From assembly GCF_024385575.1 (NCBI RefSeq), contig NZ_JANFMV010000004.1, forward strand, positions 124,001 to 188,000: a DNA stretch of 64,000 nucleotides. The letters are read 5' to 3'. The notes under the pieces were generated by a model. It did no database searches. It saw only the letters and a program-made list of their open reading frames with translations, and was not told the origin of the DNA. Below are positions 24,966-44,968 of this stretch, piece after piece (within the stretch, counting starts at the first letter, position 1; each line of letters begins with the position of its first letter). A program made the translations under genes and the position numbers. The DNA comes from Rhizobium sp. NRK18 (lineage in GTDB: Bacteria > Pseudomonadota > Alphaproteobacteria > Rhizobiales > Rhizobiaceae).

Positions 24966-25019
24966 TCTATTTCTAGCGATTGATGTATATGAAATTGAGA
25001 TCAACTGCACGAGACGAAC

Positions 25020-25709: not shown

Positions 25710-25733
25710 GGCCGGCGGGGTTCGCCGCCGGCC
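25710..25733. terminator. Bidirectional terminator hairpin
   Basis: GGCCGGCGG (25710-25718) and CCGCCGGCC (25725-25733) make a perfect 9-bp stem with a 6-base loop. It sits between the convergent GntR and aldehyde dehydrogenase genes. No T run follows. Confidence 0.65.
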
Positions 25734-25740
25734 CTGTTGA

Positions 25741-27186: not shown

Positions 27187-27211
27187 GCCACAATCCTCCA
27201 TTCTGTTATCG

Positions 27212-27646
27212 TTATTTCGGAACGCCGGTCACTGCCGCAAAGCCCGCGGCCTCGATGCCGGCAATCGCGCAGATTTCGTCATTGCCGCCGATGTCGCCGG
27301 ATATGCCGACAGCGCCGACGACGGTACTGCTGTCATCCAGGATCAGCACGCCGCCCGGAGATGGTACCACCCGTCCGCCGCTGACGGTCGAAAGCACGCT
27401 GATGAATGTCGGGTTCTTTTCCGCCCGCTCCGTCAGTTCACGCGAACCGAAGCCCATGCCGAGCGATCCCCAGGCCTTGCCGAAGGCGATATCGAAACGG
27501 ACGATGCCGGCGCCGTCCTCGCGCTTGTAGGCAACCAGATGACCGCCGGCGTCGAGCACAGCGACGGCCAATGGCGCGAAATTTTCCGCCCGCGCCTTTT
27601 CAAGCGCTGCGTCAATGATGGTGGTGGCTTTGGACAGGGACAACAT
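27212..27646 (-). CDS. GlcG/HbpS family heme-binding-like protein
   Basis: 144-aa protein of the GlcG/HbpS family (also called DUF336). It has the typical pattern AVAVLDAGGHLVAYKREDGA and a late PGGVLI...VVGAVGISGD. Family members include heme-binding sensors and small proteins of catabolic operons; the function is poorly known. The ATG at 27646 is the likely start; an ATG at 27664 would add six residues. It lies between the GST and aldehyde dehydrogenase genes. Confidence 0.82.
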   Translation of the reverse strand: MLSLSKATTIIDAALEKARAENFAPLAVAVLDAGGHLVAYKREDGAGIVRFDIAFGKAWGSLGMGFGSRELTERAEKNPTFISVLSTVSGGRVVPSPGGVLILDDSSTVVGAVGISGDIGGNDEICAIAGIEAAGFAAVTGVPK

Positions 27647-27702
27647 GATCTTTTCAAACTCCATGAACTGAAATGGGCATTCGACCGGCGCAGGCAAGCC
27701 GG

Positions 27703-28365
27703 TCAGAGAAACATTGCGAAGATATCCCGCGAACTTGGCGGTCTGGGAACGCGGAACTGGACACTGGCGAGGTCGATCGCGCCGGGCCGCGCGAGGCAGC
27801 TTTCAAGCCAGCGCTTCATCGCCGGCCAGGGCGAGATGTCGACGCCGGCGATCGGAATGAAGTGCATGACGGCGGCGACATTGATGTCAGCCACCGTCAA
27901 GCGGTCGCCGACGATGAACTCCCGGTCTTCGAGATGCCCATCCAGAACCGAGAATGGCCGGGCCAGCTTCTTCATGGTGATCGCCTCTTCCTCTCCGTCC
28001 GGCGCGCATGGATCGAAAAGATATCGGACCGCGGACGTCAACAGAAGCGGCTTTTCGACCTCGGTCGCCACCCACAGCGACCACTGCGTCATCAAAGCGT
28101 CTTCCTTCGGCGTTTGCGGTCCGAGCAGATCGCCGTAACGACGTGCCAGGTAGAGATTGATGGCCAGCGATTCAAACAGCACGAAATCGCCGTCGACGAG
28201 TGTCGGGCATTTGCCGTTCGGATTGAGAGCGAGGAATTCCGGGGGCTTGGCATCGCCCGGCCGGAAGGCCAGCGGCTCCCGGGCATGCTCGATGCCGATC
28301 TCGTTGAGCATCCAGCTGCAGCGATTTGCGCGTGTTTTCGTCACGTCGCCATAAAGCGTGATCAT
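27703..28365 (-). CDS. Glutathione S-transferase
   Basis: 220-aa cytosolic GST. The N-terminal thioredoxin-like domain (1-80) contains the NGKCPTLVDGDFVLFESLAI glutathione-binding segment, and a helical C-terminal domain carries VGDRLTVADI. GSTs in aromatic operons cleave ether bonds, isomerise ring-cleavage products or remove reactive aldehydes. It lies downstream of the stilbene-cleaving oxygenase. The specific reaction cannot be inferred. Confidence 0.9.
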   Translation of the reverse strand: MITLYGDVTKTRANRCSWMLNEIGIEHAREPLAFRPGDAKPPEFLALNPNGKCPTLVDGDFVLFESLAINLYLARRYGDLLGPQTPKEDALMTQWSLWVATEVEKPLLLTSAVRYLFDPCAPDGEEEAITMKKLARPFSVLDGHLEDREFIVGDRLTVADINVAAVMHFIPIAGVDISPWPAMKRWLESCLARPGAIDLASVQFRVPRPPSSRDIFAMFL

Positions 28366-28495
28366 CAGGGTCGTACCTTTGGAACGGGTTTCGGCACCGG
28401 ACAGCGAAGCATGTCACGGCGGCAGTCGGTGCCGGCCAGGGTCCGGAGGTCTGACCGGCCCTGCCCGGCACACGAACCGCGGGAGGATAGACGAT

Positions 28496-28523
28496 GGCGG
28501 TCTGCAGCAAGCCGCAGACCGCC
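28496..28523 (-). terminator. Hairpin after the carotenoid/stilbene oxygenase gene
   Basis: GGCGGTCTGC (28496-28505) and GCAGACCGCC (28514-28523) form a perfect 10-bp stem with an 8-base loop. It starts 7 bases after the oxygenase stop on the minus strand. No T run follows, so partial attenuation within the operon is likely. Confidence 0.55.
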
Positions 28524-28530
28524 GCGGGGG

Positions 28531-30018
28531 CTAGAAGCCGCGGTCTGATCCGAGCGCGCTGCCCGGCACCCAGATGCCGTGGAAGCCCTCATGCACACGG
28601 CAGGGGAACTTGACCACAGCAAGGGGACCCTGCGACAGCCTGCGTGCATCGAGAATGACGAGGTCGGTGCGGTTTTCCTTCCGTCGTCCGACCATGGTCA
28701 TCAGGAAGCCGTCGCCCTCTTCCGCATCCGGGCTGCGCGGCACGAAGCACGGCTCTTCCGGTGACGCATCGGGGCCGGCATAGAAGAGTTCGATCTTGCC
28801 GGTCTGCTCGTCGAAATGGCCGAGGCAGGTGAAGGGAGGGCCTTTCGGTCCGGGTTCGAGCATCGGCCATTTTGCCGGATGGTTGGTGCCGAACCAGTAG
28901 TGGCGCGTGCGCCGCATCGAGAAGCGGTTGTCGACCACGGGCATTTCACCGATGTGGTTGATGAAGCGCTCGATCTTGACGTCGCTCCCTTCGCTGGAAA
29001 GGTCGACGATCCAGCGCTCGCCGAACGGCGGCATCTCGTGGGCATGGGGATTGTGAATGTCGGGAAACTGGCTGAGCCAGCCCGATTCCGTCACGAAGTG
29101 GTCGAGAACCAGACGGCTTCCGTCGTCCCAGGCGTTGAAGGTGTGGGTCTGCATGGCGATCTTCGGGGCCGTGAACCAGCGGATCGCCTTCACCCCCTGA
29201 TCGCGCGGAATAACCGCGATGTATGTGCTCTTGTGGCTGTCCCAGTGCCAGTAGGCCTCGCCCTTTTCCACCCGGTCCCATTCGCAGACCATCGGGCAGA
29301 TGACGAAGGCGATGTAGTTTCGCGAGACCATGAAGTCGTGGACCATCGAGCAATACGGCGCCTTGAAGCGCTCGGTGCGGGTGAACTGGCCTTCCTTGTC
29401 GATGGAGTAGACCTCGATCTCGTCGCTGGCGACGCCTTCGCAGTTATAGGCGAAAGCCACACATTCGCCGGTCACCGGATCGATCTTCGGATGGGCGGTG
29501 AAGGTGCGGCTTTTCAGCTGTCCGCCGAAATCCGTTTCGCCGCGGGTCGTCAGGTCATTCGGATCGAGCTCGTAGGGACGTCCCGCTTCTTTCAGGGCAT
29601 AGAGCTTGCCGTGGTGCCACAGGACGGACGTGTTCGCGGTGTTGGCATCCTCGCCCTCGACTTCCGGGCTGTCCGTGAAGGGGTTGCGGTAAGCGCCGAA
29701 CAACGCGCGGCGCGCCGAGCGTTCCAGCTCGAACTTGCGGGTGCGGACATATTTCATCGTCAGGTCCGCATGCCCGTTCTGGAAGCGCACCATGTGGACC
29801 ATGCCGTCGCCGTTGAGGAAGATGTCCTTGCCGTGCAGCGGCGGATAGGCGTGGTCGGCGCTGTTGCGGATATAGATGCCTTCCAGTTCGGCCGGAATAC
29901 GGCCGATCACCTCGAGGTCATGCACTTCGCCTTCGATCCGGACGGGGGCCGCGTAGCCGTTGAAGACGATGTCGTCAGGAAACTGCAGGCCGGGCCTCAA
30001 GTTGGTATGCTGGTTCAT
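28531..30018 (-). CDS. Lignostilbene-dioxygenase-type carotenoid cleavage oxygenase
   Basis: 495-aa seven-blade propeller oxygenase with four Fe(II)-binding histidines: His176 (TAHP), His227 (MVHDF), His292 (QTHTF) and His476 or 480 (VHEGFHG). Tyr110 and Lys143 are 33 residues apart. As I recall, this equals Tyr101 and Lys134, which anchor the 4-hydroxyl of stilbenes in NOV1 and LSD enzymes. This favours cleavage of lignostilbene, resveratrol or isoeugenol to aromatic aldehydes over carotenoid cleavage. TTGGAG before the ATG fixes the start. An aldehyde dehydrogenase follows in the same operon. Confidence 0.88.
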   Translation of the reverse strand: MNQHTNLRPGLQFPDDIVFNGYAAPVRIEGEVHDLEVIGRIPAELEGIYIRNSADHAYPPLHGKDIFLNGDGMVHMVRFQNGHADLTMKYVRTRKFELERSARRALFGAYRNPFTDSPEVEGEDANTANTSVLWHHGKLYALKEAGRPYELDPNDLTTRGETDFGGQLKSRTFTAHPKIDPVTGECVAFAYNCEGVASDEIEVYSIDKEGQFTRTERFKAPYCSMVHDFMVSRNYIAFVICPMVCEWDRVEKGEAYWHWDSHKSTYIAVIPRDQGVKAIRWFTAPKIAMQTHTFNAWDDGSRLVLDHFVTESGWLSQFPDIHNPHAHEMPPFGERWIVDLSSEGSDVKIERFINHIGEMPVVDNRFSMRRTRHYWFGTNHPAKWPMLEPGPKGPPFTCLGHFDEQTGKIELFYAGPDASPEEPCFVPRSPDAEEGDGFLMTMVGRRKENRTDLVILDARRLSQGPLAVVKFPCRVHEGFHGIWVPGSALGSDRGF

Positions 30019-30066
30019 CTGAAACTCCAATATTTGAAAATCGTACAGTCTTGGGAGGACTTGAAA

Positions 30067-31254
30067 TCAGGCGGCGACCACCGCCGCCTGTTCGGGTTGA
30101 CGCGCCAATTCGCGACGGGTCATGAGCATGAACGTCACCGCCACGAGGGCAAAACAGCTGACCGCCCAGCCGAGAGCCGGATAACCGACGGTGGCGACAA
30201 CGAAACCGCCGAGTGCAGGGCCTGCCGCCGATCCGAGCATCATCATTGCCGGCGTCGCGGCGACGGCACGTCCCGTCTCGTCAACCCGGCTAAGAAGGCC
30301 GAACATGAAGGTGTGGGTGAAGATCACCAGTGGCACGTAGAGCGTCGCAGGGACGGCGAAGAAGGCGAATGTCGTGGCGCCCGTCACGGAGAGGGCGAAT
30401 AGCGCCTGGAGGATCGGGCCGGCGATGCCGACATTGACCGGCGCAAACTTCTTCTGCAGCACGGCGGCGAGAATGCCCGGCAACAGGTTGACGAAACCGG
30501 TGACGATCAGGACGCTCTGGATTGCGTTCCCGCCGAAATTGCGCATGTCACCGATCCGCTCCACAAAGGCAAAGACCATGGCCTGATTGAGGGCGATGCA
30601 GACGATTGTGCCGATCGTCAGCCACGCGGCCTTCGGAAGCGGCTTCTTCACGGCGGCAGCCCGCTGAGCGGCGGCGGCGACATTTGCCTGCGGAACCTCC
30701 GGGAAGAAGAGAACGGCGACGACCGCACCAAAGGCCATCGTGATGGTGAAGGCGACGAAGATGCTTGGTCCGCCGTAAGCGGCAATGATGCCCGGCAAGA
30801 CGGCAAACATGATGACAGCCAGAACGCCCATCGCCACATTGGCAATGCCGAACAGACGGTGCGGGTTGGCCGATCGTCCCATGGCGCCGTGGGTTACCGA
30901 AAGCGCCGCGCCAACGCCGAGACCGGCCACGGCATGCAGCAGCATGAAATTCACGAGACTGTCCGGCGACACCGGCAGCCAGGAAGCGGTCAGGAAAGCA
31001 CAGCCGGCCACACAATAGCCCAAGAAGGCGAAGACGCGGTGTTTGAGCCGCGTGAACATCGGCGCGAATATAACGCTCGAAATGACCACGGAGGCGAGAA
31101 AGGCGGTCACCGTCAGCCCGGCTTCAGGGGCGGCAAGGCCGTAAAATTTCATCAGGCTGCCGATCCACAGCGGCAAGGCCGCCAGATCGATCATGCCGGC
31201 CATGTGGCCGATGCTCAGGGTCGCTTGCCCGCCCCAACTGTTCAGTTTCGTCAT
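30067..31254 (-). CDS. MFS transporter, possible aromatic-compound carrier
   Basis: 395-aa inner-membrane protein with about twelve hydrophobic segments and the major-facilitator layout (central cytoplasmic loop near residue 195). It lacks a recognisable drug or sugar signature. GGAGGAAG precedes the ATG. It lies between an outer-membrane protein gene and the stilbene-cleaving oxygenase in one operon, so uptake of the operon's substrate is the simplest role. Confidence 0.85.
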   Translation of the reverse strand: MTKLNSWGGQATLSIGHMAGMIDLAALPLWIGSLMKFYGLAAPEAGLTVTAFLASVVISSVIFAPMFTRLKHRVFAFLGYCVAGCAFLTASWLPVSPDSLVNFMLLHAVAGLGVGAALSVTHGAMGRSANPHRLFGIANVAMGVLAVIMFAVLPGIIAAYGGPSIFVAFTITMAFGAVVAVLFFPEVPQANVAAAAQRAAAVKKPLPKAAWLTIGTIVCIALNQAMVFAFVERIGDMRNFGGNAIQSVLIVTGFVNLLPGILAAVLQKKFAPVNVGIAGPILQALFALSVTGATTFAFFAVPATLYVPLVIFTHTFMFGLLSRVDETGRAVAATPAMMMLGSAAGPALGGFVVATVGYPALGWAVSCFALVAVTFMLMTRRELARQPEQAAVVAA

Positions 31255-33598: not shown

Positions 33599-35515
33599 TC
33601 ACTTCGAAACCGGCAGAAGGAAGCCGTCGAAGAACCGCGCCAGTTCTTCATGCGCATCGAAGGGCAGGACATGGGCGACATGCTGATCGGGACGGACAAG
33701 CACGAGGCATCCCTGTTCGCGATCGATGGACCGCAGGTCGAAGATGTCGCGTCCGTCTCCGGGGCAAGCGCAGAAGATCTTCTCGTAGTCGACCAGACCG
33801 AGCCTGCCCTTTCGCGGCAGGAGGAAGGTCGGCAGAGTTTCCAGCACCAGGTCGCGGCTGTGCTGCTGGAAGACGACCCGCAGGTCGATTGCCGAGTCGA
33901 TGTCGGCGCCGGACGACGTGTATTTGCGGATCGGCGAATTGGCGGAAGTGTCGAGGAATGCGCACAGCCGGCGAACAGCCGAGCCCTCTGCGGCGGGATC
34001 GCCCGACGGACTGAAGGCAAACAGCCGCCAGCGCGCATCCGCCTTGACCACATGGCCGAGTTCGATCGGCTTGGCATCGGCGAGCCGGACGACCGGCGCG
34101 GAATGAAAGCGCGCGCCGATCTCGAAGCCGGGCGCCAGCGCCTGCCAGGTCTTCTCCCCGGTCAGCAGCGACGGCGTGTAGACGACCGACATGCCCGCCG
34201 TATAGCGCCCGTGCTGGATGAAGTAGCGCTGGAACCGCGGCGCGTCGCCGCCCGCACCGGGCTCCGGCCGTTCGCTCATGATCCGCGACCATTCGCGGTC
34301 GAACTCGATCAGGTCCCGGGCTACGGCCTGGCGCTCGGCTGAATAGCTGTGCAGGATGCCCGGCGGCGAGCGGCCCTCAAGGACGGAGACAAGCTTCCAG
34401 CCAAGATTGAAGGCGTCGCCCATGGAGACGTTCATGCCCTGCCCCGCCTTCGGACTGTGGGTATGGCAGGCGTCGCCGCAGATGAAGACATGCGGCAGGC
34501 GGGTGCCGACGGCGTCTTGCGGGACGTCGTCGAACTTGTCGGTAAGCCGCTGGCCGATCTCGTAGACCGACCACCAGACCACGTCCCTGACATCGAAGGA
34601 GAACGGCTTGAAGATGCGCTGCGCCGCCGCGATCAGGTGATCGATCGTGATGTTGCGGCCGGCGACCCGCTCGCCCGCATTGAGCTTGTCGAGCTCGATG
34701 TAAAGGCGCACGAGATAGCCGCCCTCGCGCGGAATGATGATGATATTGCCCTCTTTTGCCGACTGGATCAGTGTCTTGCAGCGAATATCAGGGAAATCGG
34801 TGACGACGAGAACGTCCATGACGCCCCAGGCCTGGTTTGCGGAATCGCCCACGAGTTCGCGGCCGATGGCGCGGCGCACTGCGCTTCTCGCCCCGTCGCA
34901 CCCCACCACGTAGCGGGCCCTGACCGTGCGGCGCTGCCCCTCGGCCTCACCCTCCGCCCGCTCGAGCGACACGGTGACGGGATAGTCGGCGGCCCCCGGA
35001 TCGACCGTCAGATCGACGAGCTGCCAGGCATAATCCGGCTCCAGCCGCGACGGCGACTTGCGCATGATCTCGAGATACATGTCATGCACCCGTGCCTGAT
35101 TGAGGATCATGTGCGGCATCTCGGAGAGACCGTCCTCGACATCCTGGATGCGGCCGTTGCGGGTGATGTGCCCAGGATTAGCGGCGTCAGGCTTCCAGAA
35201 CGTGGTCTCGTTCACCCAGTACCCCTGCTTGAGGATCTTCTCGGCAAACCCGAACGCGTTGAACATTTCCATGGAGCGGCAGGAAATGCCGTCTGCCTGT
35301 CCCTTTTCCATCGGGCCGGCCCGACGCTCGACGATGCGCGTTGAAATGTCGGGAAAGGCGGACAGCTGGGCTGCAAGCGTCAAACCGGCAGGGCCTGTCC
35401 CGACGATGAGAACATCGACCGTCTCGGGCAGGTCTGCCTGCGCACCATCCCTTCCGGCCGCAGCGGCCTGAAGTTCCGGGTCGCCGGGTCGAAATCCATT
35501 GAGGTGATACTGCAT
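33599..35515 (-). CDS. mobA: 3-Hydroxybenzoate 4-monooxygenase (MobA)
   Basis: 638-aa FAD-dependent hydroxylase converting 3-hydroxybenzoate, NADPH and oxygen to protocatechuate. Comamonas MobA is 639 aa and very similar throughout, from MQYHLNGFRPGDP at the start to LVLVRPDQHVAHVLP near the end. The FAD motif GTGPAG is at about 39-44, the DG motif is VVGCDGARSAVRRAIG and the GD motif is FICGDACHTHSPKAGQG. The C-terminal thioredoxin-like domain is complete. GGGAGGA lies before the ATG. It is divergent from a MarR gene, the same arrangement as Comamonas mobA/mobR. It could also hydroxylate 3,5-dihydroxybenzoate to gallate (inference). Confidence 0.92.
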   Translation of the reverse strand: MQYHLNGFRPGDPELQAAAAGRDGAQADLPETVDVLIVGTGPAGLTLAAQLSAFPDISTRIVERRAGPMEKGQADGISCRSMEMFNAFGFAEKILKQGYWVNETTFWKPDAANPGHITRNGRIQDVEDGLSEMPHMILNQARVHDMYLEIMRKSPSRLEPDYAWQLVDLTVDPGAADYPVTVSLERAEGEAEGQRRTVRARYVVGCDGARSAVRRAIGRELVGDSANQAWGVMDVLVVTDFPDIRCKTLIQSAKEGNIIIIPREGGYLVRLYIELDKLNAGERVAGRNITIDHLIAAAQRIFKPFSFDVRDVVWWSVYEIGQRLTDKFDDVPQDAVGTRLPHVFICGDACHTHSPKAGQGMNVSMGDAFNLGWKLVSVLEGRSPPGILHSYSAERQAVARDLIEFDREWSRIMSERPEPGAGGDAPRFQRYFIQHGRYTAGMSVVYTPSLLTGEKTWQALAPGFEIGARFHSAPVVRLADAKPIELGHVVKADARWRLFAFSPSGDPAAEGSAVRRLCAFLDTSANSPIRKYTSSGADIDSAIDLRVVFQQHSRDLVLETLPTFLLPRKGRLGLVDYEKIFCACPGDGRDIFDLRSIDREQGCLVLVRPDQHVAHVLPFDAHEELARFFDGFLLPVSK

Positions 35516-35541
35516 CCATAGTCCTCCCTATGACGCCAATT

Positions 35542-35560
35542 AGTAAGTTGACTTACCATT
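35542..35560. promoter_or_regulatory. Putative MobR operator 1
   Basis: AGTAAGTTGACTTACCATT contains the perfect inverted repeat GTAAGT-TG-ACTTAC (35543-35556). It matches 16 of 19 bases of a second site 49 bases away in the mobA-mobR divergent region. Confidence 0.65.
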
Positions 35561-35590
35561 TATCAACACCCGCCAAAGGTCAATTAAAAA

Positions 35591-35609
35591 AGTATGTCGA
35601 CTTATCATT
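35591..35609. promoter_or_regulatory. Putative MobR operator 2
   Basis: AGTATGTCGACTTATCATT repeats the first site with three differences and keeps the dyad (GTATGT-CG-ACTTAT, imperfect). It lies 36 bases before the mobR start, suggesting autoregulation. Confidence 0.6.
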
Positions 35610-35645
35610 TTTTGCTATGAAGAGGGAAAGCCACGAGGAAGTGCG

Positions 35646-36107
35646 ATGAACGAAGAGAGCGAAGGCGCCTTGAGCGCCATGATGCCCGGGCACCTGATCC
35701 GCCGCCTGCACCAGATATCGACCCAGGTGTTCGCCAGGAGAATTCGGGAAGCGGGGTCGGACCTGACGCCCGTCCAGTTCGCCGCGCTCGATGCCATTCA
35801 CCAACAGCCGGGCGTCGATCAGGCGAGCCTTGCGCATTCCATCGCCAAGGACCGCGCGACCGTCGGCGCCGTTGTCGACCGCATGGAGCAGAAAGGGCTC
35901 CTGACGCGCGTCGTCAGCGATCAGGACAAGCGCGCCCGCGAGCTGACACTGACCGACGAAGGGCGCGAGGCGCTTAAGGCGCTGATGCCTATTGTCACCG
36001 ACCTTCAGAAGGAAATCCTCGGCGGCCTGAACGAGGAGGAATACCGCCAGTTCATCGCACTCGCGGCAAAGGCCGCGTGGTCGGCCACACCGGCGGACGA
36101 AGGCTGA
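35646..36107 (+). CDS. mobR: MarR family repressor (MobR)
   Basis: 153-aa MarR-type regulator with a winged helix at about 38-105 (LTPVQFAALDAIHQQPGVDQASLA..., DRATVGAVVDRMEQKGLLTR) and the wing DQDKRARELTLTDEG. MobR of Comamonas represses mobA and is released by 3-hydroxybenzoate. The divergent arrangement and paired operators are the same here, which supports the assignment. GAGGAAG precedes the ATG. Confidence 0.87.
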   Translation: MNEESEGALSAMMPGHLIRRLHQISTQVFARRIREAGSDLTPVQFAALDAIHQQPGVDQASLAHSIAKDRATVGAVVDRMEQKGLLTRVVSDQDKRARELTLTDEGREALKALMPIVTDLQKEILGGLNEEEYRQFIALAAKAAWSATPADEG

Positions 36108-36184: not shown

Positions 36185-37174
36185 TCAATTCCCCTTCAGG
36201 GCCTTGACGAAGGCGCTGGCCTCAAGCCCCTGCGCATCGGCGTCGGCGATGATCTTTTCGACGGCGGCACTGCTCGCGGCATTGAACTTGGCGGCTTCAT
36301 CCGGCGCCAGCGTGATGACTTCCTTGCCATCCGTGGCGGAGAAATCGGCAAGCGCCTTGTCGGCGACGGCAAGCCATGCCTTGTTGCCGTTGACAGCCGC
36401 CGTGCGGCCGGCATCCAGCACGATCTTCTGCTGATCGTCGCTCAGCTCACCGAAGCTGTCGCGGTTCATGACCAGGAAGAAATCGGACATCGTGGTGTCC
36501 ATCCCTTGTGTGATGTACTTCGTGACTTCGGCCAGCTTGAACGCCTTCAGCGTCGTCGCATCGATCATCGCCCCGTCGATGACGCCGGTCTGCATCGCAT
36601 TGTAGATTTCCGGCGCCGGCATCGAAACAGGCGTCGCCCCCCAGGCCTCGACGACCAGACCGGCATTGCGCGACGGCACGCGAATCTTCAGGCCCTTCAG
36701 GTCGTCCAGGCTGCGGATCGGCTTTTCGGCCGTAAACAAGAGGTTCGGTGCATTGTTCCAGAGGCCCAGCAGGACCACGCGCTTGTACTCGGCCGACAGC
36801 TTGTCGAGATTGGCAAGTATACGCTCCGTCCCGTTTTCGGCGGTGATGACGCCCGGCAGTTCGGCCAGCAGCGTCTTGGGGAAGTTGGCAGCCGTATAGC
36901 CCGGCAGACCGAAGGCGATGTCGGCGACGCCCTCAAGCGCCCGGTTGTACTGCTCGGCCGGACCGGGACCGATCTCGCCGCCCATGTAGAGCGTCACCGT
37001 CACCGCGCCGCCGGTCTTGTCGGCTATGGTGGCCGCAAAGGGCTTGTAGGTGGAATCGACCACGAAATGGGTCGGCGGCTGGAAGTCGGCCAGCTTGAGA
37101 TCTTCGGCGGATGCAAAGGATGCAGCCAGCGTGAACGTCGCTGCAAGGGCAGCCGTGAGTGTCTTCAGTTTCAT
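36185..37174 (-). CDS. TRAP transporter periplasmic binding protein (DctP family), second system
   Basis: 329-aa DctP-type receptor with a signal peptide of about 23 residues (cut near ASA-ED). It has LYMGGEIGPGPAEQYNRALEG near residue 65 and GLKIRVPSRNAGLVVEAWG near 165, including the usual carboxylate-binding Arg. GGAGGAA before the ATG fixes the start. It lies downstream of its two permeases, an order opposite to the first TRAP set. Neighbouring mobA and gal genes suggest a hydroxybenzoate ligand. Confidence 0.92.
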   Translation of the reverse strand: MKLKTLTAALAATFTLAASFASAEDLKLADFQPPTHFVVDSTYKPFAATIADKTGGAVTVTLYMGGEIGPGPAEQYNRALEGVADIAFGLPGYTAANFPKTLLAELPGVITAENGTERILANLDKLSAEYKRVVLLGLWNNAPNLLFTAEKPIRSLDDLKGLKIRVPSRNAGLVVEAWGATPVSMPAPEIYNAMQTGVIDGAMIDATTLKAFKLAEVTKYITQGMDTTMSDFFLVMNRDSFGELSDDQQKIVLDAGRTAAVNGNKAWLAVADKALADFSATDGKEVITLAPDEAAKFNAASSAAVEKIIADADAQGLEASAFVKALKGN

Positions 37175-37298
37175 CCCGTATTCCTCCGTTTGTGGATGAT
37201 TGAATGCTGCCAGACCGGCACTGCGGGGTCTGGTCTTTGACCTGGCGTTTCCGCCCTGTCAGCATGCGAAAACATGATCGAACTGCCTGACATGCCGC

Positions 37299-38603
37299 TC
37301 ACCCGAACATCGTGTTGGGCAGGAACAGCGCAATCCCGGGTATCGCGATGATCAGCAGCAGGCCGACGATCATGGCGAGAAGGAACGGCGCGACGCCGCG
37401 GAAGATGGTTGTCAGCGGCACGTCCCCGGCGACGGCGCGGACGACGAAGACGTTGAGCCCGACGGGCGGCGTGATCATGCCCATTTCGATGACGATCACC
37501 GCGACGACGCCGAACCAGACCGGATCGAAGCCGAGCGCCGTGATGACCGGAAAGACGATCGGGATCGTGATGACGAGCATGGACAGCCCGTCCATGAACA
37601 TGCCGAGCACGATGTAGGCGAAGATGATGACGAAGAGCGTGCCGTATGCGCCGAGGCCCAGCGCACCGAGACCCTCGCCAAGCGTTGATGGGATGCGGGT
37701 GACCGCAAAGAACGGATTGAGCACATTGGCGCCGATCACGATGGCATAGAGCATGGCCGAGGTGCTGAGCGTACTCATCACCGCGTCGCGGAAATCCTTG
37801 AACGACAGGCGCCGCTTGATGACGGCCAGCAGGATCACCAGCGCCGCCCCGACACCGGAGGCTTCGACGGGTGTGAATATGCCCACATAGATGCCGCCGA
37901 TGGAGAGCACGATAACGAGAAGAAGCGGCGCGGCCTGCCCGAAGATCCGGAAACGGTCGGCCAGCGCCACGGGTTCGCCGCGCGGGCCCGCCTTCGGATC
38001 GAAATACGAGATCAGCCAGACCACCGCCATGAACAGCGCCGTCAGCAGCAGCCCGGGCACGACGCCGGCCATGAACAGGCGGCCGATCGATTCCTCGGTG
38101 AGGATGGCGTAGAGAACGAATCCGGTCGAAGGCGGTATAAGAAAGCCGAGCGTACCGCCCGCCGCGATCGCGCCGGTAGAGAGACCGGGGGCGTAGCCCA
38201 GCCGGCGCATTTCCGGCAGCGCCACCTTGCCGAGTGTCACGGCGGTGGCGACGGAAGAGCCGGAAACGGCGGCGAAGACGGCGCAGCCCAGCACCGACGC
38301 GGACGCCAGCCCGCCCCGGAAGCGGCCGACCCAGGCAAAGGCCGCATCGTAGAGGCCGCGACTGAAGCCCGCCGCAGACGAAACGTTGCCCAAGAGCACG
38401 AACATCGGCACGACGATGAGATTGTAGTTGGATATGGCCGAGTAGCTTTCCGTCAGCAGGACGCCGCCGGCGCTGCGCGACCCTTCCAGAACCCAGTAGC
38501 CGCCGAAACCGACGATCAGCATGGAGAAGGCAACCGGGACACGCACGATGAGAAGCGCAAACAGGCAGGCGATGCCCACGAAGCCGGCGACGAAAGGCGT
38601 CAT
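37299..38603 (-). CDS. TRAP transporter large permease (DctM family), second system
   Basis: 434-aa membrane protein with about twelve hydrophobic segments and the DctM marks VFAAVSGSSVATAVTLGKVALPEM and IPPSTGFVLYAIL. The ATG at 38603 overlaps the small-permease stop by one base (TGATG). It forms the channel of the second TRAP importer. Confidence 0.93.
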   Translation of the reverse strand: MTPFVAGFVGIACLFALLIVRVPVAFSMLIVGFGGYWVLEGSRSAGGVLLTESYSAISNYNLIVVPMFVLLGNVSSAAGFSRGLYDAAFAWVGRFRGGLASASVLGCAVFAAVSGSSVATAVTLGKVALPEMRRLGYAPGLSTGAIAAGGTLGFLIPPSTGFVLYAILTEESIGRLFMAGVVPGLLLTALFMAVVWLISYFDPKAGPRGEPVALADRFRIFGQAAPLLLVIVLSIGGIYVGIFTPVEASGVGAALVILLAVIKRRLSFKDFRDAVMSTLSTSAMLYAIVIGANVLNPFFAVTRIPSTLGEGLGALGLGAYGTLFVIIFAYIVLGMFMDGLSMLVITIPIVFPVITALGFDPVWFGVVAVIVIEMGMITPPVGLNVFVVRAVAGDVPLTTIFRGVAPFLLAMIVGLLLIIAIPGIALFLPNTMFG

Positions 38604-39100
38604 CACTTTGCCCCCTTCACGATAAGGACAACCAGCTGCACGGCAAAGGTAAGCACGCACAGCGCGGCCCCGGCAGCGAGGATGGCGTAGAACGGCCAGA
38701 TCGGCATGCGCAGCATGTTGGTCGCATCGCCCCACTCCAGGGCGTCGAGCGCCTTGAGGACCGCGCGCTGCGCCAGGATGGCCATCACGAAGCCCGAGAG
38801 GCAGTAGGCGACGATGTCGCCGATGAACCGGCCCCAGCGGCCGAGAATGCGTTCGAAGACATCGACGGCAACATGGTCGCGCTTTGCGGTACAGTAGGGA
38901 AGCGATGCCATGATCAGGGCGACGGCGGTCAATTGCACGAATTCGTTGACGCCGAGGATCGGAATGCCCAGGACGTAGCGCATAACGACGCCCACCGTGA
39001 CGATGGCGACGATCGCCAGCAGGCAGATGGCGCCGACCAGCGCCAGATAGAAGGTTGCCCTCTCGAACCGGGCCGACCAGATATCAATGGTGTCACGCAT
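38603..39100 (-). CDS. TRAP transporter small permease (DctQ family), second system
   Basis: 165-aa four-helix membrane protein with the DctQ core (VGVVMRYVLGIPILGVNEFVQL and KRDHVAVDVF). The ATG at 39100 with GGGAGC upstream is preferred; the frame extends to a TTG at 39169 without support. It is the first gene of the second TRAP operon, with a palindromic site about 140 bases upstream. Confidence 0.9.
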   Translation of the reverse strand: MRDTIDIWSARFERATFYLALVGAICLLAIVAIVTVGVVMRYVLGIPILGVNEFVQLTAVALIMASLPYCTAKRDHVAVDVFERILGRWGRFIGDIVAYCLSGFVMAILAQRAVLKALDALEWGDATNMLRMPIWPFYAILAAGAALCVLTFAVQLVVLIVKGAK

Positions 39101-39237
39101 CGATTTGCGAAGCTCCCACGCTGACGGCCTCGCGAAGGCCCCGGTCGAAGGGCCCGCTTGAGCCTTCAACTAGGCGGCAGGTCCATGCCTCTGTCAGCAG
39201 GTTCAAAAACGCCGTTGTCATTCGACCTCCCATTCAA

Positions 39238-39333: not shown

Positions 39334-40509
39334 CTATAGCGTTTCGTCTTCCACGCTTTCGCGCAGCAACGATAGGAGCAGTTCCTGCGCCTTGGTCGGC
39401 GCCCAGCTGGCGCGGTAGGTCAGACCGATCTGCCGCGCCTGCCAGTCGGCCTTGACCTTGACTTCCGTGACCAGCCCTTTGGATATTTCCGCACGCGCCT
39501 GCGCGCTGGAGATGCAGCCGAGATGTTCGCTGTTGTCGAGGACTTCCCGCATGAACAGGATGGAGCCAGCCTCGATGATGCTTTCCGGCTGACCGACCCC
39601 GGCGAAGAAGGCGTCGAACTGGTCGCGGGCGGGCGTGCCCTGACGGGGAACCACCCAGGCGCATTCCTTCAGTTCCGCGAGGCTCACATCGTCGCGGCCG
39701 GCCAGCGGATGGTGATTGCCGGCCAGCACCGTGAGCTTGTCGGAAAACAACGGCTCCTGGACGATGTCGCCGATCGGCGCCGGCACCCGCAGCGCCCCGA
39801 CGATCATGTCGATTTCGCCGCGCCGCAGCCCGCCCAGCAATTCGTCGTAGAGCCCATCCATGATCAGCACCGCATGATGCGGACGCTGCTGGCGGAAGCG
39901 GACCAGCGTGCGCGGCAACAGCACGGAGCGCGACAGCGGCAACGCGCCGATGACGATGCGGCCCGCCTCCCCGCCGTCAAGTTCGGCGAGGTCCGATTCC
40001 AGCTGGTCCAGTTCGCGGAAGGCGAGCATGACCGCCTGGACGAGCGTCCGCGTCGCGCGTCCGGCAATCAGGCCGAACGCGGTCCGCTCGAACAAGTTGC
40101 GGCCGGCCTCCTGCTCGAGTTGCGAGATCGCCCGATGGACGGTGGGTTGTGCGAGACCCAGCCTGCGTGCGGCGAGCGTGAAATTCTCGGTCTCGTGTAC
40201 CGCGACCAGTCCCTGCAGCTGCGCCGTGGTGGCGGTCAGCCGCAGCCGGGGCGAGATATCGGAGAGTGCCGGATCGAGGAGCGCGAAGGCGCGCCGCACC
40301 CGGTTGGCCAGCACCTCTCCGCGCGGCGTGACAAAGAACCCCTGCCGGGTGCGGTCGAAGAGCGGACCGCCAGCCTCGTTCTCCAGCTTGCCGATCGCCT
40401 GCGTGACTGCGGGCTGCGATACATGGCAGGCCTCCGCGGACTGGGTCAGCGAACCGGTGCTGGCGACCCACAGATAGAGACGAAGATGGCGGAGATTGCG
40501 CGAAATCAC
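39334..40509 (-). CDS. LysR family regulator with two N-terminal HTH domains
   Basis: 391-aa regulator, about 90 residues longer than usual because two LysR-type winged helices lie in tandem. The first is at about 5-65 (SLTQSAEACHVSQPAVTQAIGKLE) and the second at about 95-155 (NFTLAARRLGLAQPTVHRAISQLE). A normal LysR effector domain follows (about 180-385). Both helices keep the recognition pattern, so both may bind DNA. GTG start overlaps the dehydrogenase stop (GTGA). It lies between the second TRAP operon and the gal operon and could regulate both. Confidence 0.87.
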   Translation of the reverse strand: MISRNLRHLRLYLWVASTGSLTQSAEACHVSQPAVTQAIGKLENEAGGPLFDRTRQGFFVTPRGEVLANRVRRAFALLDPALSDISPRLRLTATTAQLQGLVAVHETENFTLAARRLGLAQPTVHRAISQLEQEAGRNLFERTAFGLIAGRATRTLVQAVMLAFRELDQLESDLAELDGGEAGRIVIGALPLSRSVLLPRTLVRFRQQRPHHAVLIMDGLYDELLGGLRRGEIDMIVGALRVPAPIGDIVQEPLFSDKLTVLAGNHHPLAGRDDVSLAELKECAWVVPRQGTPARDQFDAFFAGVGQPESIIEAGSILFMREVLDNSEHLGCISSAQARAEISKGLVTEVKVKADWQARQIGLTYRASWAPTKAQELLLSLLRESVEDETL

Positions 40510-41378
40510 ATGCGGTCCAGCACTGTCTGGAGGCGGGCGCCGAGGTCGGCGGGTCCCGGATCTGCGTGCAGCCCGCCGATCTCATCCTGCCATTTTGCCG
40601 TCGCCGCACTCATGCCACCGGAAAGTCCGAGTTCCTGGATCGTCAGTGTCACCTCCCGCATTTCCGCTGCGCGCCGCAGGCCGTGCACCATCATCCGTTC
40701 GAGGTTATAGGCGCCGCGGCGACGCCATTCGAGTGCCGGATCGGAGGCCTCGAGCGAGCCGATGACGCTGTCTTCGACGCCGGCCCGCCTTGCGGCGAGG
40801 AAACATTCCGCCGTCAGCGCTTCAATGCCCTTGACCATCACCGAACGGATCATCTTGATCGAGGACGCCTGCCCCACTTCGCTTCCGGCTATCTCCGGGC
40901 GCATGTCGAGCGATTTCAGCGCGGCGACCGCCTGCTGCGCATGCGGACCGGAGACCAGCATCGGCACGTGATGACGCTTGGGGTGAACAGGCGCCATGAC
41001 CGCCACGTCAACATAGCGACCGCCGGCCATCTCGATGATCTCGGCCGCGCGGCGCTTCGTGCCCGGCGCGCAGGAATTGCAATCGAACCAGAAACTGCCG
41101 TGAGCAATGCCGGCGGCAGCCGCGCTCGCGGCGGCCAGCGCCTGATCGGCGGTCACCACGCTGAAGACCGCGTCGACGCCGTCCAGCGCCTGCTGACGCG
41201 TGTCGAAGCCGCAAACCTCATGAGACTGATAGCGCGCCTTCATCGCAGCGCCGGCATCGATATCGAACGCGTTGATCTTCAGGGGACGCCGCTCTCCCCA
41301 GCCGCTGACGAACGCCATGGCGGCCTCACCAAAACCGATGAATGCGAGCTGTTCAATCTTGCCGGAATTGCTTTTCAT
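40506..41378 (-). CDS. NAD(P)-dependent dehydrogenase, 6-phosphogluconate/3-hydroxyisobutyrate type with DUF1932-like C-terminus
   Basis: 290-aa beta-hydroxyacid-dehydrogenase-like protein. The N-terminal Rossmann motif is AFIGFGEAAMAF (about 14-25), and the C-terminal part contains SSIKMIRSVMVKGIEAL, where the usual Lys is kept. The reaction is unknown. It is divergent from galB and coupled to the tandem-HTH LysR gene, so it may act on an oxo or hydroxy acid of the gal pathway. It is not LigC, which belongs to the Gfo/Idh/MocA fold. GGAG before the ATG at 41378 fixes the start. Confidence 0.8.
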   Translation of the reverse strand: MKSNSGKIEQLAFIGFGEAAMAFVSGWGERRPLKINAFDIDAGAAMKARYQSHEVCGFDTRQQALDGVDAVFSVVTADQALAAASAAAAGIAHGSFWFDCNSCAPGTKRRAAEIIEMAGGRYVDVAVMAPVHPKRHHVPMLVSGPHAQQAVAALKSLDMRPEIAGSEVGQASSIKMIRSVMVKGIEALTAECFLAARRAGVEDSVIGSLEASDPALEWRRRGAYNLERMMVHGLRRAAEMREVTLTIQELGLSGGMSAATAKWQDEIGGLHADPGPADLGARLQTVLDRM

Positions 41379-41434
41379 GTCGATCTCCAACCATGCCCGC
41401 AGAGTGGCAAACGGTATCCGGCTTTGCCAGTCGT

Positions 41435-41530: not shown

Positions 41531-42265
41531 ATGTCCGCCAAGAAAACCGCCCTCGTGATTTCTGCCCATGCCGCGGATTTCGTCTGGCGCTGCGGCGGCG
41601 CCATCGCCCTTCACGCGTCCATGGGTTATGAGGTGACGGTCGCCTGCCTGTCGTTCGGGGAGCGCGGTGAATCCGCCAAACTCTGGAAGCAGCCGGGCAT
41701 GACGCTGGATGTCGTCAAGCAGGCACGGCGCGCGGAAGCGGAGAAGGCCGCGGAAGCGCTCGGCGTCCACGATCTCGTCTGCCTCGACCTCGGCGACTAT
41801 CCGCTGGAGCTTTCCCGCGACGACAAGAACCGCTTGGTCGACGTGATCCGCAAGGTGCAGCCTTCCTTCATGCTGTCGCATTCGCAATACGACCCCTACA
41901 ACACCGACCACATGTACGCCACGCAGGTGGCGCTCGAATGCCGGATGATCGCCCAGGCCTGGGGCCACAATCCGGGGGAAAAGGTACTCGGCGCGCCACA
42001 GCTCTACCTGTTCGAACCGCACCAGACCGAGCAGATGGGGTGGAAGCCGGACACCTTCCTCGACATCACCCCGGTCTGGGAGAAGAAGCGGGCCGCGATC
42101 GAATGCATGGAAGGCCAGGAGCATCTGTGGGAATACTACACCCGCGTTGCCATCAATCGCGCCAACCACTTCAAGCGCAATTCGGGCGGCCAGTCGGGCG
42201 GGCGCGACTGCAAGTATGCCGAGGGCTTCCAGTCCATCTTCCCGCGTACGGTCGACGAACTCTGA
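41531..42265 (+). CDS. galB: 4-Oxalomesaconate hydratase (GalB, PIG-L fold)
   Basis: 244-aa zinc enzyme that hydrates 4-oxalomesaconate to 4-carboxy-4-hydroxy-2-oxoadipate. It has the PIG-L deacetylase fold but carries the GalB variant motif SAHAADFVWRCGG (His13, Asp16), with a third metal His in TDHMYA. Pseudomonas putida GalB is of this type, unlike the LigJ hydratase. AAGGAG 8 bases before the ATG fixes the start. It is followed by a dioxygenase, galC and galD. Confidence 0.9.
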   Translation: MSAKKTALVISAHAADFVWRCGGAIALHASMGYEVTVACLSFGERGESAKLWKQPGMTLDVVKQARRAEAEKAAEALGVHDLVCLDLGDYPLELSRDDKNRLVDVIRKVQPSFMLSHSQYDPYNTDHMYATQVALECRMIAQAWGHNPGEKVLGAPQLYLFEPHQTEQMGWKPDTFLDITPVWEKKRAAIECMEGQEHLWEYYTRVAINRANHFKRNSGGQSGGRDCKYAEGFQSIFPRTVDEL

Positions 42266-42287
42266 GCGAACCTTCGGGAGGATTGAG

Positions 42288-43250
42288 ATGACGGAACCCT
42301 GCTTTGATCTTGCCCATCTCGCCCATGTCGAGATGTACACCGACCGCTTCGAGGACAGTCTCGATTTCTTCACACGCATCTACGGGCTGAAGCTGTCCGG
42401 AATGGACGAGACCTCAGCCTATCTGCGCGCCTGGGACGACTACGAATTCCATTCACTGAAGCTCACACGCCACCACACCACCGGCGTCGGCCACATCGCC
42501 TATCGCGCCTCGTCCGAGGCCGCCCTCATGCGCCGCGTCAAGGCGATCGAGGAGAGCGGATACAAGGTGATCGGCTGGGTCGAGGGCGACCGTGGCCACG
42601 GCAAGGCTTTCCGCTTCGAGGATCCGTTCGGCCATGTCTTCGAGATCTACTGGGACACCGTCTGGTACGAGGCACAGGAAGACGCGGAGAAGGCGGCGCT
42701 GAAAAACACCGCATCCGCCTTCACCGGGGCTGCGCCACGCCGGATCGACCACCTCAATCTCCTGAGCGAGGACGTGAGCGAATTCCGCGCCTTCATGGAA
42801 ACCTGCCTCGGCAGCCGTGTCACCGAAATGATCCAGCTCGACAATGGCCGTCTCGGCGGCTGCTGGTTCACGATCAACAACAAGACCTATGATCTCGCCT
42901 GCACCGAAGAGCATGGCGGCGGCCAGGGACGGCTACACCATGTCACCTATGCGACCGACCAGCGCGAGGACATATTGCGCGCCGCCGACATCTTCCTGCA
43001 GAACGGCGTTCACATCGAAACGGGTCCGCACAAGCATGCGGTTCAGGGCACGTTCTTCCTCTACGTCTGGGAGCCGGCGGGCAATCGTGTCGAGCTCGCC
43101 AATTCCGGCGCGCGCCTCATTCTCGCTCCCGACTGGCAGCCGGTCGTCTGGACCGAGAAGGACCGCAAGAAGGGCCAGGCCTGGGGCCTGAAGACCATCG
43201 AGACATTCCATACGCACGGCACGCCGCCCGTTGAAACGAAGGGACACTGA
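42288..43250 (+). CDS. Type I extradiol dioxygenase (catechol 2,3-dioxygenase family) in the gal operon
   Basis: 320-aa VOC enzyme with two domains. Metal ligands are expected at His155 (RRIDHLNLL), His217 or 218 (RLHHVTYA) and Glu269 (GNRVEL). His209, His248/250 and Tyr259 sit where catalytic residues lie in XylE, so it looks fully active. The family opens catechols. Its place between galB and galC is unexpected, because gallate and protocatechuate 4,5-dioxygenases known to feed galBCD are LigB-type enzymes. The ring substrate may therefore be gallate or a related trihydroxybenzoate. GGAGG precedes the ATG. Confidence 0.88.
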
Positions 43251-43251
43251 C

Positions 43252-43923
43252 ATGGCCGTCGTCGTTCAGAACATCGCGCGCGCCGATCAGGCGATCATCG
43301 ACCGGCTAGCGGCTGCAGGCGTCGCCACCGTCCATGAAGCCCAAGGCCGCAAGGGCATGCTGTCGAGCTATATGCGGCCGATCTATGCCGGCGCGCAGAT
43401 CGCCGGTTCTGCCGTCACCATATCCGCGCCTCCGGGCGACAACTGGATGTTGCATGTGGCGATCGAACAGTTGAAGCCCGGGGATATTCTCGTGCTGGCG
43501 CCGACCTCACCGTGCGACAACGGCTATTTCGGCGACCTGCTGGCAACATCCGCCATGGCGCGCGGCTGCCGTGGCCTCGTCATCGACGCCGGCGTTCGCG
43601 ACATCCGCGACCTGACCGCGATGGGCTTTCCAGTCTGGTCGAAGGCGATCTCGGCGCAGGGCACGGTCAAGGAAACGCTGGGTTCGGTCAACGTCCCGGT
43701 CGTCTGCGCCGGCGCTCAGATTGAAGCCGGCGACATCATCGTTGCCGACGATGACGGCGTCTGCGTCGTTCGGCGCGAGGAAGCTGCCGCCGTGCTGGCC
43801 GCCGCCGAAAAGCGGCTGGCGGCAGAAGAAGCCAAACGCAAACGGCTGGCGGCCGGCGAACTCGGGCTCGACATCTACGACATGCGCCCGCGGCTCGCCG
43901 AGAAGGGCCTGAAATATGTCTGA
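43252..43923 (+). CDS. galC: 4-Carboxy-4-hydroxy-2-oxoadipate aldolase (GalC/LigK/RraA-like)
   Basis: 223-aa class II aldolase splitting 4-carboxy-4-hydroxy-2-oxoadipate into pyruvate and oxaloacetate, often also decarboxylating oxaloacetate. The family marks [15 protein letters not shown], the [20 protein letters not shown] segment and [15 protein letters not shown] (Arg and Asp of the metal/pyruvate site) are present. The ATG at 43252 starts one base after the dioxygenase stop; the stop region overlaps galD by 8 bases. Confidence 0.92.
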
Positions 43924-44968
43924 CGGCGGCATCCCCTGCTTGTGGATGCGGGGCGGCACCTCCAAGGGCGCCTATTTCCTCGCCCGGGACCTGCCATCCG
44001 ATCCAGAGGTGCGAAACAACCTTCTTCTGAAGATCATGGGTTCACCCGACCCCCGGCAGATCGACGGCATCGGCGGCGCCGATCCGCTCACCTCCAAGGT
44101 CGCCGTCCTGTCACCGCCAAGCCGGCTGGACGCGGATGTCGACTATCTCTTCCTTCAGGTTTTCGTCGACAAGGCGCTGGTCAGTGATGCCCAGGGCTGC
44201 GGCAATATCCTCGCCGGCGTCGGCCCGGCGGCCATCGAACGCGGACTTGTCGCGGCCACCGGCGAGGAAACGCAGGTGCGCATCCACATGGTCAACAGCG
44301 GCGAGATCGCGCTCGCCCGCATCCAGACACCCGGCGGCAAGGTCAGTTATGCCGGCAGCACCGAAATTGCCGGCGTGCCCGGTACCCATGCGGCAGTCCC
44401 CCTGCTCTTCCTCAACATCGCCGGCTCCATGTGCGGCTCGCTGCTGCCGACCGGCAACGCCTTCGACGTAATTGACGGCGTCGACTGCACGCTGATTGAC
44501 AATGGCATGCCATGCGTGATCATGCGTGCCGCCGATTTTGGCCTGTCCGGCAAGGAGGCGCGCGAAGATCTTGAAGCCATGACCGACATCAAGGACCGGA
44601 TCGAGGCCATCCGCCTGAAGGCCGGACCGATGATGAACCTTGGCGATGTCGAGAAGGCTTCCGTCCCGAAGATGACGCTGGTGTCTGCGCCGTACCAGGG
44701 CGGCGCGATTGCCACGCGTAGCTTCATCCCCCATCGCGTCCATGCCTCGGTCGGCGTCTTCGCCGCCATCACCGTGGCGACGGCGACGCGGATCGCCGGA
44801 AGCCCGGCGGCCGAACTATGCCAGCCGCCTGCCGACGGGCGCTACCGCGTCGAACATCCGACCGGCGACATGGAGGTCTTCCTCGACATTGCCGAAGATG
44901 GCGCGATCCGCGGCGCCGGCAATGTCCGCACCGCCCGCAAGCTCTTTGACGGCCGGGTCTTCGCCTAG
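43916..44968 (+). CDS. galD: 4-Oxalomesaconate tautomerase (GalD, PrpF family)
   Basis: 350-aa PrpF-type isomerase. It opens with [16 protein letters not shown], containing the family's nucleotide/substrate loop, has [16 protein letters not shown] and the Cys of [12 protein letters not shown]. GalD converts the keto form of oxalomesaconate to the enol form used by GalB. It overlaps galC and ends the operon. Related PrpF proteins isomerise aconitates, but the galB and galC neighbours settle the call. Confidence 0.92.

Follow-up and report, generated by a model that had tools for sequence, protein, structure and literature searches.

A VOC-fold dioxygenase as the proposed gallate-opening enzyme of a galBCD operon in Rhizobium sp. 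NRK18

Introduction

Hydrolysable tannins are built around gallate, which also arises as an intermediate when syringyl lignin is broken down. To our knowledge, the bacterial gallate dioxygenases, GalA included, are of LigB type, and the NCBIfam model named "gallate dioxygenase" is matched by LigB proteins. DesB is classed as a type II dioxygenase in a published abstract. The gal cluster of P. putida KT2440 is given as galTAP, galBCD and galR, and 3-O-methylgallate is opened by LigAB, LigA2B2, DesZ or MgaAB in sphingomonads and Pseudomonas NGC7 (excerpts of PMC12314914).

Here we analyze a galBCD operon within a 64,000-nucleotide stretch of the Rhizobium sp. NRK18 genome ("the window"). Judging from gene content and context, we consider it very likely that the full set of enzymes for meta-cleavage of gallate is encoded here, with a VOC-fold dioxygenase, probably dependent on Fe(II), in the place of LigB-fold GalA/DesB. 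The VOC gene is thus a putative non-orthologous replacement.

Results

The operon and its flanking genes

The operon comprises four genes:

41531..42265, + strand, galB, PIG-L-fold 4-oxalomesaconate/KCH hydratase (PF02585; match to 5cgz)
42288..43250, + strand, VOC-fold type I dioxygenase, proposed gallate dioxygenase (Pfam, NCBIfam, structure-sequence matches, residue alignment)
43252..43923, + strand, galC, 4-carboxy-4-hydroxy-2-oxoadipate aldolase / oxaloacetate decarboxylase (NCBIfam; ATG at 43252)
43916..44968, + strand, galD, 4-oxalomesaconate tautomerase (NF033377)

All of them lie on the + strand and nearly touch or overlap, and the operon is genuine. The preliminary description of this locus had listed galB, galC and galD as all present, which is borne out by equivalog cut-offs for GalC (NF006731, 396.7 bits against a cut-off of 179; TIGR02798, 383.1 against 304.5) and GalD (NF033377, 498.8 bits against 440, the sole match genome-wide). 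For GalB, no model passed in the NCBIfam profile search, and the protein matches the solved 4-oxalomesaconate hydratase 5cgz over its full length (321.5 bits, E 3.9e-95), with the next solved relative at 47.6 bits. The operon's only ring-cleavage gene is indeed of VOC type, as had been stated: its product shows a two-domain VOC fold (Pfam glyoxalase domains), and a Pfam scan of the operon's genes found no LigB-type gene.

The operon is flanked by the following genes:

33599-35515, - strand, MobA-like 3-hydroxybenzoate 4-hydroxylase (2dkh, E 4.7e-270)
35646-36107, + strand, MarR regulator, divergent from the MobA-like gene (PF01047)
36185..39169, - strand, TRAP transporter as a whole (DctP, DctM and DctQ)
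36185-37174, - strand, DctP (PF03480)
37299-38735, - strand, DctM (reading of the sequence; plasmid annotation at the same position)
38603-39169, - strand, DctQ (reading of the sequence; plasmid annotation at the same position)
39334..40509, - strand, LysR-type regulator overlapping the DUF1932 gene (PF00126 in two stretches, HTH_1; PF03466)
40506..41390, - strand, DUF1932 / NAD-binding dehydrogenase-like gene, divergent (PF09130 and PF03446)

The LysR-type gene is probably the operon's regulator; 70 of 80 related loci have a homologue of it no more than 9 kb from the VOC gene, and at the same distance 39 have a homologue of DctM and 51 one of the DUF1932 gene. Upstream of galB, no T-N11-A LysR boxes were found at the threshold used, and a 10-base inverted repeat is present at 41402-41432. 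The MobA-like enzyme, with homologues within the retrieved stretch of 11/80 loci, possibly supplies protocatechuate, or gallate from 3,5-dihydroxybenzoate.

Synteny and co-occurrence among relatives

The layout of the operon is far from chance, since the succession galB-VOC-galC-galD is strictly preserved in 72 of the 80 related loci. The preliminary description had dealt with one odd operon; we find a VOC family that is widespread across many bacteria, with near-identical operons, some of them accompanied by tannin-splitting enzymes. Among 297 genomes of the same order, galD is present in 28 of the 29 with a VOC gene at least 64% identical (a threshold picked after the table was seen), the exception being a truncated match, versus 47 of the 268 others. 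Only galD matches above the cut-off entered these counts (75 of 94 genomes with matches), and genome G328 was left out of the 64% group, as its VOC match covers only residues 142-316 (68% identity) and its galD is not above cut-off.

The association also has its gaps, which weigh against the proposed role. No gal gene lies within 6 kb of the VOC gene in four of the 80 loci, galD is not within 12 kb of it in 10 of 28 order genomes, and a branch of 60-63%-identical VOC proteins comprises eight genomes without galD above cut-off. Pantoea sp. At-9b carries the VOC gene with galBCD not within 9 kb. Plasmid records gave 75 and 58 matches, of which 11 regions were examined. Also against the proposal, LigA is encoded in six of 28 VOC genomes, and VOC and LigAB genes share one cluster in locus L095 and on a Roseomonas plasmid.

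The VOC protein and its active site

Aligned with homoprotocatechuate 2,3-dioxygenase (HPCD), the VOC protein presents H155, H218 and E269 as metal ligands (HPCD H155, H214 and E267), and this 2-His-1-Glu set is invariant in 100 of 100 VOC homologues. The statement that metal and acid-base residues are intact stands for these ligands and for H250 and Y259, which correspond to the second-sphere residues His248 and Tyr257 of HPCD. It fails for His200, replaced by Tyr201 here and by Tyr in 99 of the 100 homologues, so that the full second-sphere set His200/His248/Tyr257 is not found. HPCD R243 and R293, the carboxylate-binding arginines, align with T245 and G296, a point against the gallate reading; K199, beside Tyr201, is a candidate for binding the gallate carboxylate.

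The His200 position governs extradiol versus intradiol cleavage, and both modes of cleavage convert gallate into the same product. Loss of the extradiol-enforcing residue may therefore be tolerable in a gallate enzyme. A more far-reaching reading, which we regard as doubtful though worth stating, is that gallate cleavage was invented a second time, independently, on the VOC fold, and that the active site shed its extradiol-enforcing His because the symmetry of gallate leads to 4-carboxy-2-hydroxymuconate either way; Tyr201 enzymes might then be mixed or even intradiol in their cleavage. If so, such regiochemistry would be visible only with asymmetric substrates, e.g., 3-O-methylgallate or protocatechuate.

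Members of the family are usually annotated as "VOC family protein" or "catechol 2,3-dioxygenase". In a phylogeny of the kind suggested in the preliminary description, the window's VOC protein falls among mostly gal-linked relatives, although the outgroup branches are very long and the joining of locus L114 with AphC is unsure. We give next to no credence to the idea of an ordinary catechol or alkylcatechol 2,3-dioxygenase whose gene sits in the operon by chance. AphC and catechol 2,3-dioxygenases are the enzyme's nearest relatives of known activity and some records carry the catechol 2,3-dioxygenase annotation, but the protein scores below the cut-off of the corresponding NCBIfam model (TIGR03211, 290.8 bits against 320.2), many genera keep its gene between galB and galC, and the His200 position holds Tyr. 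We set this explanation aside on these three grounds; moreover, in established pathway knowledge, catechol products do not enter galBCD.

Other ring-cleavage routes in the genome

The preliminary description had suggested looking for GalA and LigAB in the rest of the genome. The source genome gave no match to LigA (PF07746), nor did the control genomes, while the same model finds LigA in 33 of 297 order relatives. The co-occurrence count given above omits seven weak matches (E 1.7e-8 or worse) and so retains 28 of these 33 genomes; VOC genomes G351 and G271 are among the five lost. A single LigB-family gene (112 bits) is present in the source genome, presumably DODA/YgiD, and gave no blastp match to the true LigB reference. 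GalA/LigAB, as an alternative source of ring cleavage, did not turn up in these searches and was rejected.

A pcaHG-like pair is also encoded, and by sequence it would serve protocatechuate. The reported absence of LigI from the window extends genome-wide, as the best of six amidohydrolases is only 31% identical to a LigI ortholog. The amidohydrolase at 23836-24894 was considered and rejected as LigI, since a search with LigI as query did not pick it up at E 1e-3.

Gallate-releasing genes linked to the cluster

Tannase, LigI and MobA genes were sought by tblastn in the 80 loci, and a LigM-type O-demethylase was met in a scan of chosen genes. PF07519 tannases lie beside the cluster in four loci and on a walnut Agrobacterium plasmid, subtype-B tannases in three loci, and the LigM-type demethylase in one. 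Genes that release gallate, from two unrelated tannase families and a demethylase family, have thus joined the VOC-gal cluster repeatedly. LigB-family genes were checked in 30 of the 80 loci, including all seven tannase loci, and in three LigA-positive genomes; four of the seven tannase genomes (assemblies of unstated completeness) had no LigB-family match, which argues for the VOC protein as their gallate enzyme. Locus L116 (genome G459) scores 225 bits to LigB and matches neither reference used for LigB-family assignment.

These links bear on two other substrates. The VOC enzyme might open protocatechuate at the 4,5 position, with the DUF1932 protein or an aldehyde dehydrogenase feeding galD, and so replace LigAB and not GalA. 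A MobA-like gene 6.8 kb from the VOC gene would fit this, as would LigI near the cluster in 6/80 loci (tblastn), where PDC could be an intermediate, and a 59%-identical VOC gene of Thermus oshimai, grouped with genes for GalB- and GalC-like proteins, a 4-hydroxybenzoate 3-monooxygenase and an aldehyde dehydrogenase. However, 29 of the 80 loci, some of them cut by contig ends, showed no DUF1932 gene up to 9 kb from the VOC gene, and these include five tannase-bearing Paracoccus loci (L015, L036, L037, L044 and L066). Tannases release gallate and not protocatechuate. With the pcaHG-like pair present and LigI missing in the source genome, we set 4,5-cleavage of protocatechuate aside as the main reading and judge it improbable.

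The substrate might also be the 3-O-methylgallate of the syringate pathway, which would be converted to PDC or a methyl ester, gallate then being a secondary substrate. Described pathways do open this compound by dioxygenases (LigAB, LigA2B2, DesZ and MgaAB; excerpts of PMC12314914), the LigM-type demethylase adjoins one cluster, Rieske and VanB-family genes lie near a Roseomonas homologue, and LigI occurs near some clusters. Yet those are only six of 80, we saw neither a demethylase nor a methylesterase within the tannase-linked gal operons, and LigM itself would turn 3-O-methylgallate into gallate, which makes this proposal highly improbable.

Discussion

Proposed pathway and its implications

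Direct opening of gallate to oxalomesaconate by the VOC enzyme, as first proposed, is the explanation best supported by gene context. Its gene is linked with galBCD in many lineages. The GalBCD enzymes depend on another that forms oxalomesaconate, and the operon offers no other candidate for this step. Gallate is suggested as substrate by the two tannase families and the O-demethylase, all gallate-forming, that adjoin the same cluster elsewhere, and is favored over protocatechuate by the pcaHG-like pair and the absence of LigI for a 4,5-route. In this pathway, gallate would be taken up by the TRAP transporter and chelated to the metal via two adjacent hydroxyls. The ring would be cut beside the central hydroxyl to give 4-carboxy-2-hydroxymuconate, the enol of 4-oxalomesaconate, which GalD would tautomerise, GalB would hydrate and GalC would split into pyruvate and oxaloacetate.

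We found no VOC-type gallate dioxygenase in the open-access literature (titles, term counts and abstract openings), and the earlier phrase "new solution" to this step is used in that sense. If the proposal is true, genomes scored as gallate-negative for missing GalA/LigAB have been misread, among them those of plant-associated Agrobacterium, Rhizobium and Pantoea. The conserved His-to-Tyr change offers a natural experiment on the long-debated problem of extradiol/intradiol selectivity.

Comparison with known systems

The VOC protein shares fold and metal ligands with HPCD, whereas R243, R293 and His200 of that enzyme correspond to T245, G296 and Tyr201. Its closest solved sequence is PDB 9wgj (353 bits; deposited as "Catechol 1,2-dioxygenase"; no paper found in the open-access literature), which likewise carries Tyr at position 201, the three metal ligands and an N-K-x-Y stretch. 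AphC (7q2a) and RHA1 3lm4, VOC type I enzymes of the alkylcatechol/catechol type, share its fold, 34% identity, the metal ligands and the H250 and Y259 positions; AphC, however, keeps His in place of Tyr201, and both differ in operon and proposed substrate class. GalA/DesB, of type II and LigB fold, would carry out the same reaction to the same product, followed by the same GalD, GalB and GalC, and likewise have a LysR regulator and a transporter nearby, but they belong to another fold and superfamily, the VOC protein having neither a LigB nor a LigA domain. As far as the excerpted description of the KT2440 gal cluster goes, galBCD and a LysR regulator are common to both operons, with galA corresponding to the VOC gene and GalT to the TRAP transporter (PMC12314914).

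A VOC-fold dioxygenase gene within a galBCD operon

Four genes form one tight run on the + strand of the window (41531-44968): galB, a gene for a type I (VOC-fold) dioxygenase, galC and galD. The preliminary description had proposed that this dioxygenase opens gallate or a related trihydroxybenzoate to oxalomesaconate, and the three gal genes on which it relied were all confirmed, GalC and GalD by scores above equivalog cut-offs and GalB by its match to 5cgz. The VOC protein carries Tyr201 where homoprotocatechuate dioxygenase has the second-sphere His200.

Genes of the cluster
39334-40509, divergent from galB: LysR regulator gene with two HTH_1 stretches
40506-41390, divergent from galB: DUF1932 dehydrogenase-like gene
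41531-42265, + strand: galB, 321.5 bits to the solved 4-oxalomesaconate hydratase 5cgz (next solved relative 47.6)
42288-43250, + strand: VOC-fold dioxygenase, scoring 290.8 bits with the catechol 2,3-dioxygenase model, under its cut-off of 320.2
43252-43923, + strand: galC, 396.7 bits, passing the curated equivalog cut-off of 179
43916-44968, + strand: galD, 498.8 bits, passing the curated equivalog cut-off of 440

The two HTH_1 stretches of the LysR regulator are an unusual layout; its homologues are similar in length (median 402 aa from rough gene calls). TRAP transporter genes lie beyond the DUF1932 and LysR genes. Roughly 6.8 kb separate VOC from a gene for a MobA-like 3-hydroxybenzoate 4-hydroxylase (E 4.7e-270 to 2dkh), which might form gallate from 3,5-dihydroxybenzoate and is encoded beside a MarR gene. 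The MobA-like gene and the divergent MarR gene occupy 33599-36107, and 11 of the 80 loci compared below have a MobA homologue in the sequence fetched for them. A second aromatic-type island (19269-31254) encodes a TRAP solute-binding protein, FAA hydrolase, FAD monooxygenase, amidohydrolase, aldehyde dehydrogenase, GST, RPE65-family (carotenoid oxygenase-type) protein and MFS transporter.

Conservation of the cluster

Scanning one genome per species (84,980) gave 559 stretches encoding relatives, of which the analysis retained the top 80 (81-98% identity). All three gal genes lie within 6 kb in 73 loci, and in 72 of these they share a strand and keep the strict order; the other loci have galC and galD (2), galC only (1) or no gal gene within 6 kb (4). 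Within 9 kb of the VOC gene we found LysR in 70, DUF1932 in 51 and the TRAP permease gene in 39 of the 80 loci, some of which end at contig ends.

Among 142 genomes of the class, the VOC gene (E 1e-60) was present in 6: it adjoins galD in the window's own genome (G000), G040 and G107, lies on a separate contig from galD in G117, and is represented by relatives of 41-43% identity without galD in G044 and G125. Across 297 genomes of the order, VOC occurs in 45 and galD above cut-off in 75. The 28 genomes whose full-length VOC reaches at least 64% identity, a post hoc threshold, all carry galD (within 12 kb in 18), compared to 47 of the remaining genomes (Fisher p ~2e-19, uncorrected for shared ancestry); G328, with a truncated match of 68% identity and no galD, was left out of this count. 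Independently of that threshold, galD is found in 36/45 VOC genomes versus 39/252 others. LigA is also present in 6 of the 28 genomes, and in 3 of 93 cases a single galD has both VOC and LigA within 12 kb. Gene order is reshuffled in distant members of the order (LigI-VOC-galB-galC-galD in L104, galD-galC-galB-VOC in L106, galD-galB-VOC in L105), a pattern that favours a functional link over hitch-hiking. A VOC branch of 60-63% identity is often without galD (e.g., L108 and L109), so its function may differ. Neither VOC nor LigA was seen within 12 kb of 58 of the 93 above-cut-off galD genes of the order, some on short contigs, and further undescribed routes to oxalomesaconate may therefore exist.

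Among 11 plasmid regions examined, galB-VOC-galC-galD stand in this order on plasmids of Agrobacterium tumefaciens (from walnut), A. vitis, Thioclava and two Rhizobium, and a rose-derived A. tumefaciens carries a plasmid with galC-galD, a transporter gene and VOC. By annotation, a gal cluster on a Pantoea piersonii plasmid comprises galB, aldolase, tautomerase, LysR and aromatic acid MFS transporter genes, with VOC in the place expected for gallate dioxygenase; Pantoea sp. At-9b has VOC but no galBCD within 9 kb. On a Roseomonas mucosa plasmid (L148, 3028-16588), LigA-like and LigB genes cluster with a VOC gene sharing Tyr201, as if both ring-opening solutions coexisted, together with genes for an alpha/beta hydrolase, an amidohydrolase of the LigI/sulfomuconolactone hydrolase kind and Rieske/VanB-family proteins. 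A DUF1932 gene recurs beside the VOC family in Roseomonas, Methylobacterium, Pantoea and Thermus (30% identity there).

Gallate or protocatechuate as possible substrate

Tannase action sets gallate free, and enzymes of the LigM type are able to produce it. Tannase genes occur in 7/80 loci: PF07519 tannases between galC and galD (L015, L036) or after galD (L044, L066), a subtype-B tannase unrelated to these between VOC and galC (L037; 370.9 bits, cut-off 300), and its relatives of 51-52% identity beyond the TRAP genes (L011, L016). On the walnut A. tumefaciens pAt plasmid, a gene annotated as tannase follows galD (56.6% identity to the L015 tannase; no NCBIfam model matched). By the same models, the carboxylesterase downstream on the A. 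vitis plasmid is not a tannase. In L105, from a genome of the window's family (G435), a protein encoded some 2 kb away from galD-galB-VOC matches the vanillate/3-O-methylgallate O-demethylase 5tl4 at 604 bits.

The LigB-family search, which gave strong matches in three LigA-positive genomes, found none in 14 of the 30 VOC genomes tested (of 80; completeness unreported), among them 4 of the 7 tannase genomes (G437, G438, G439, G441). The sole match in G440 resembles that of G000, and G442 and G443 each have one such gene plus a divergent LigB-like gene (32-33% identity).

G000 itself (4.5 Mb, 5 contigs, stated 100% complete) has one galD copy. The genome search suggested by the preliminary description recovered neither LigA nor LigI, and its one LigB-family gene (112 bits), which we take to be of the DODA/YgiD type, had no blastp match to true LigB. 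The silence of the LigA profile is informative because this model, silent in 14 control genomes, does find LigA in 33 of the 297 order relatives.

Protocatechuate cleavage requires a semialdehyde dehydrogenase and LigI. That the VOC enzyme opens protocatechuate, with another dehydrogenase feeding the product towards galD, is improbable: the best of six Amidohydro_2 proteins in G000 is only 31% identical to a LigI ortholog (itself 375 bits to LigI 4d8l), and one adjacent pair of PF00775 genes, which we took for pcaHG-like, is present. DUF1932 seems to be no essential step of the cluster, since it lies within 9 kb of VOC in only 51/80 loci and had no match in the five tannase-bearing Paracoccus loci as fetched. 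On a Thermus oshimai plasmid, from another phylum (L149, 5342-13355), a Tyr201 VOC gene (59% identity) neighbours GalB-like and GalC-like genes, a dehydrogenase-like gene, an aldehyde dehydrogenase gene in divergent orientation and a 4-hydroxybenzoate 3-monooxygenase gene; protocatechuate may be the substrate in this more distant branch. LigI, found near 6/80 clusters, may handle PDC that arises as a side product or from 3-O-methylgallate.

Proposed mechanism and relation to known enzymes

With a catechol, intradiol and extradiol cleavage lead to different products. Gallate is a symmetric 3,4,5-triol, and our own derivation predicts that a C3-C4 (intradiol) or C4-C5 (extradiol) cut would yield the same compound, 4-carboxy-2-hydroxymuconate, which would be the enol of 4-oxalomesaconate, the GalD substrate. 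Because both cuts would give one product, losing the histidine that enforces extradiol cleavage would cost little, and the tyrosine in its place could bind the third hydroxyl of gallate. The symmetry of gallate would explain the residue change, which by itself is no proof of substrate.

GalA is a LigB-type enzyme. DesB is described as a type II dioxygenase (PMC3962378). Our searches of open-access papers found no VOC-type gallate dioxygenase, and we rate the fold and the downstream pathway as known and the proposed enzyme of the ring-opening step, with its distinctive active-site change, as new.
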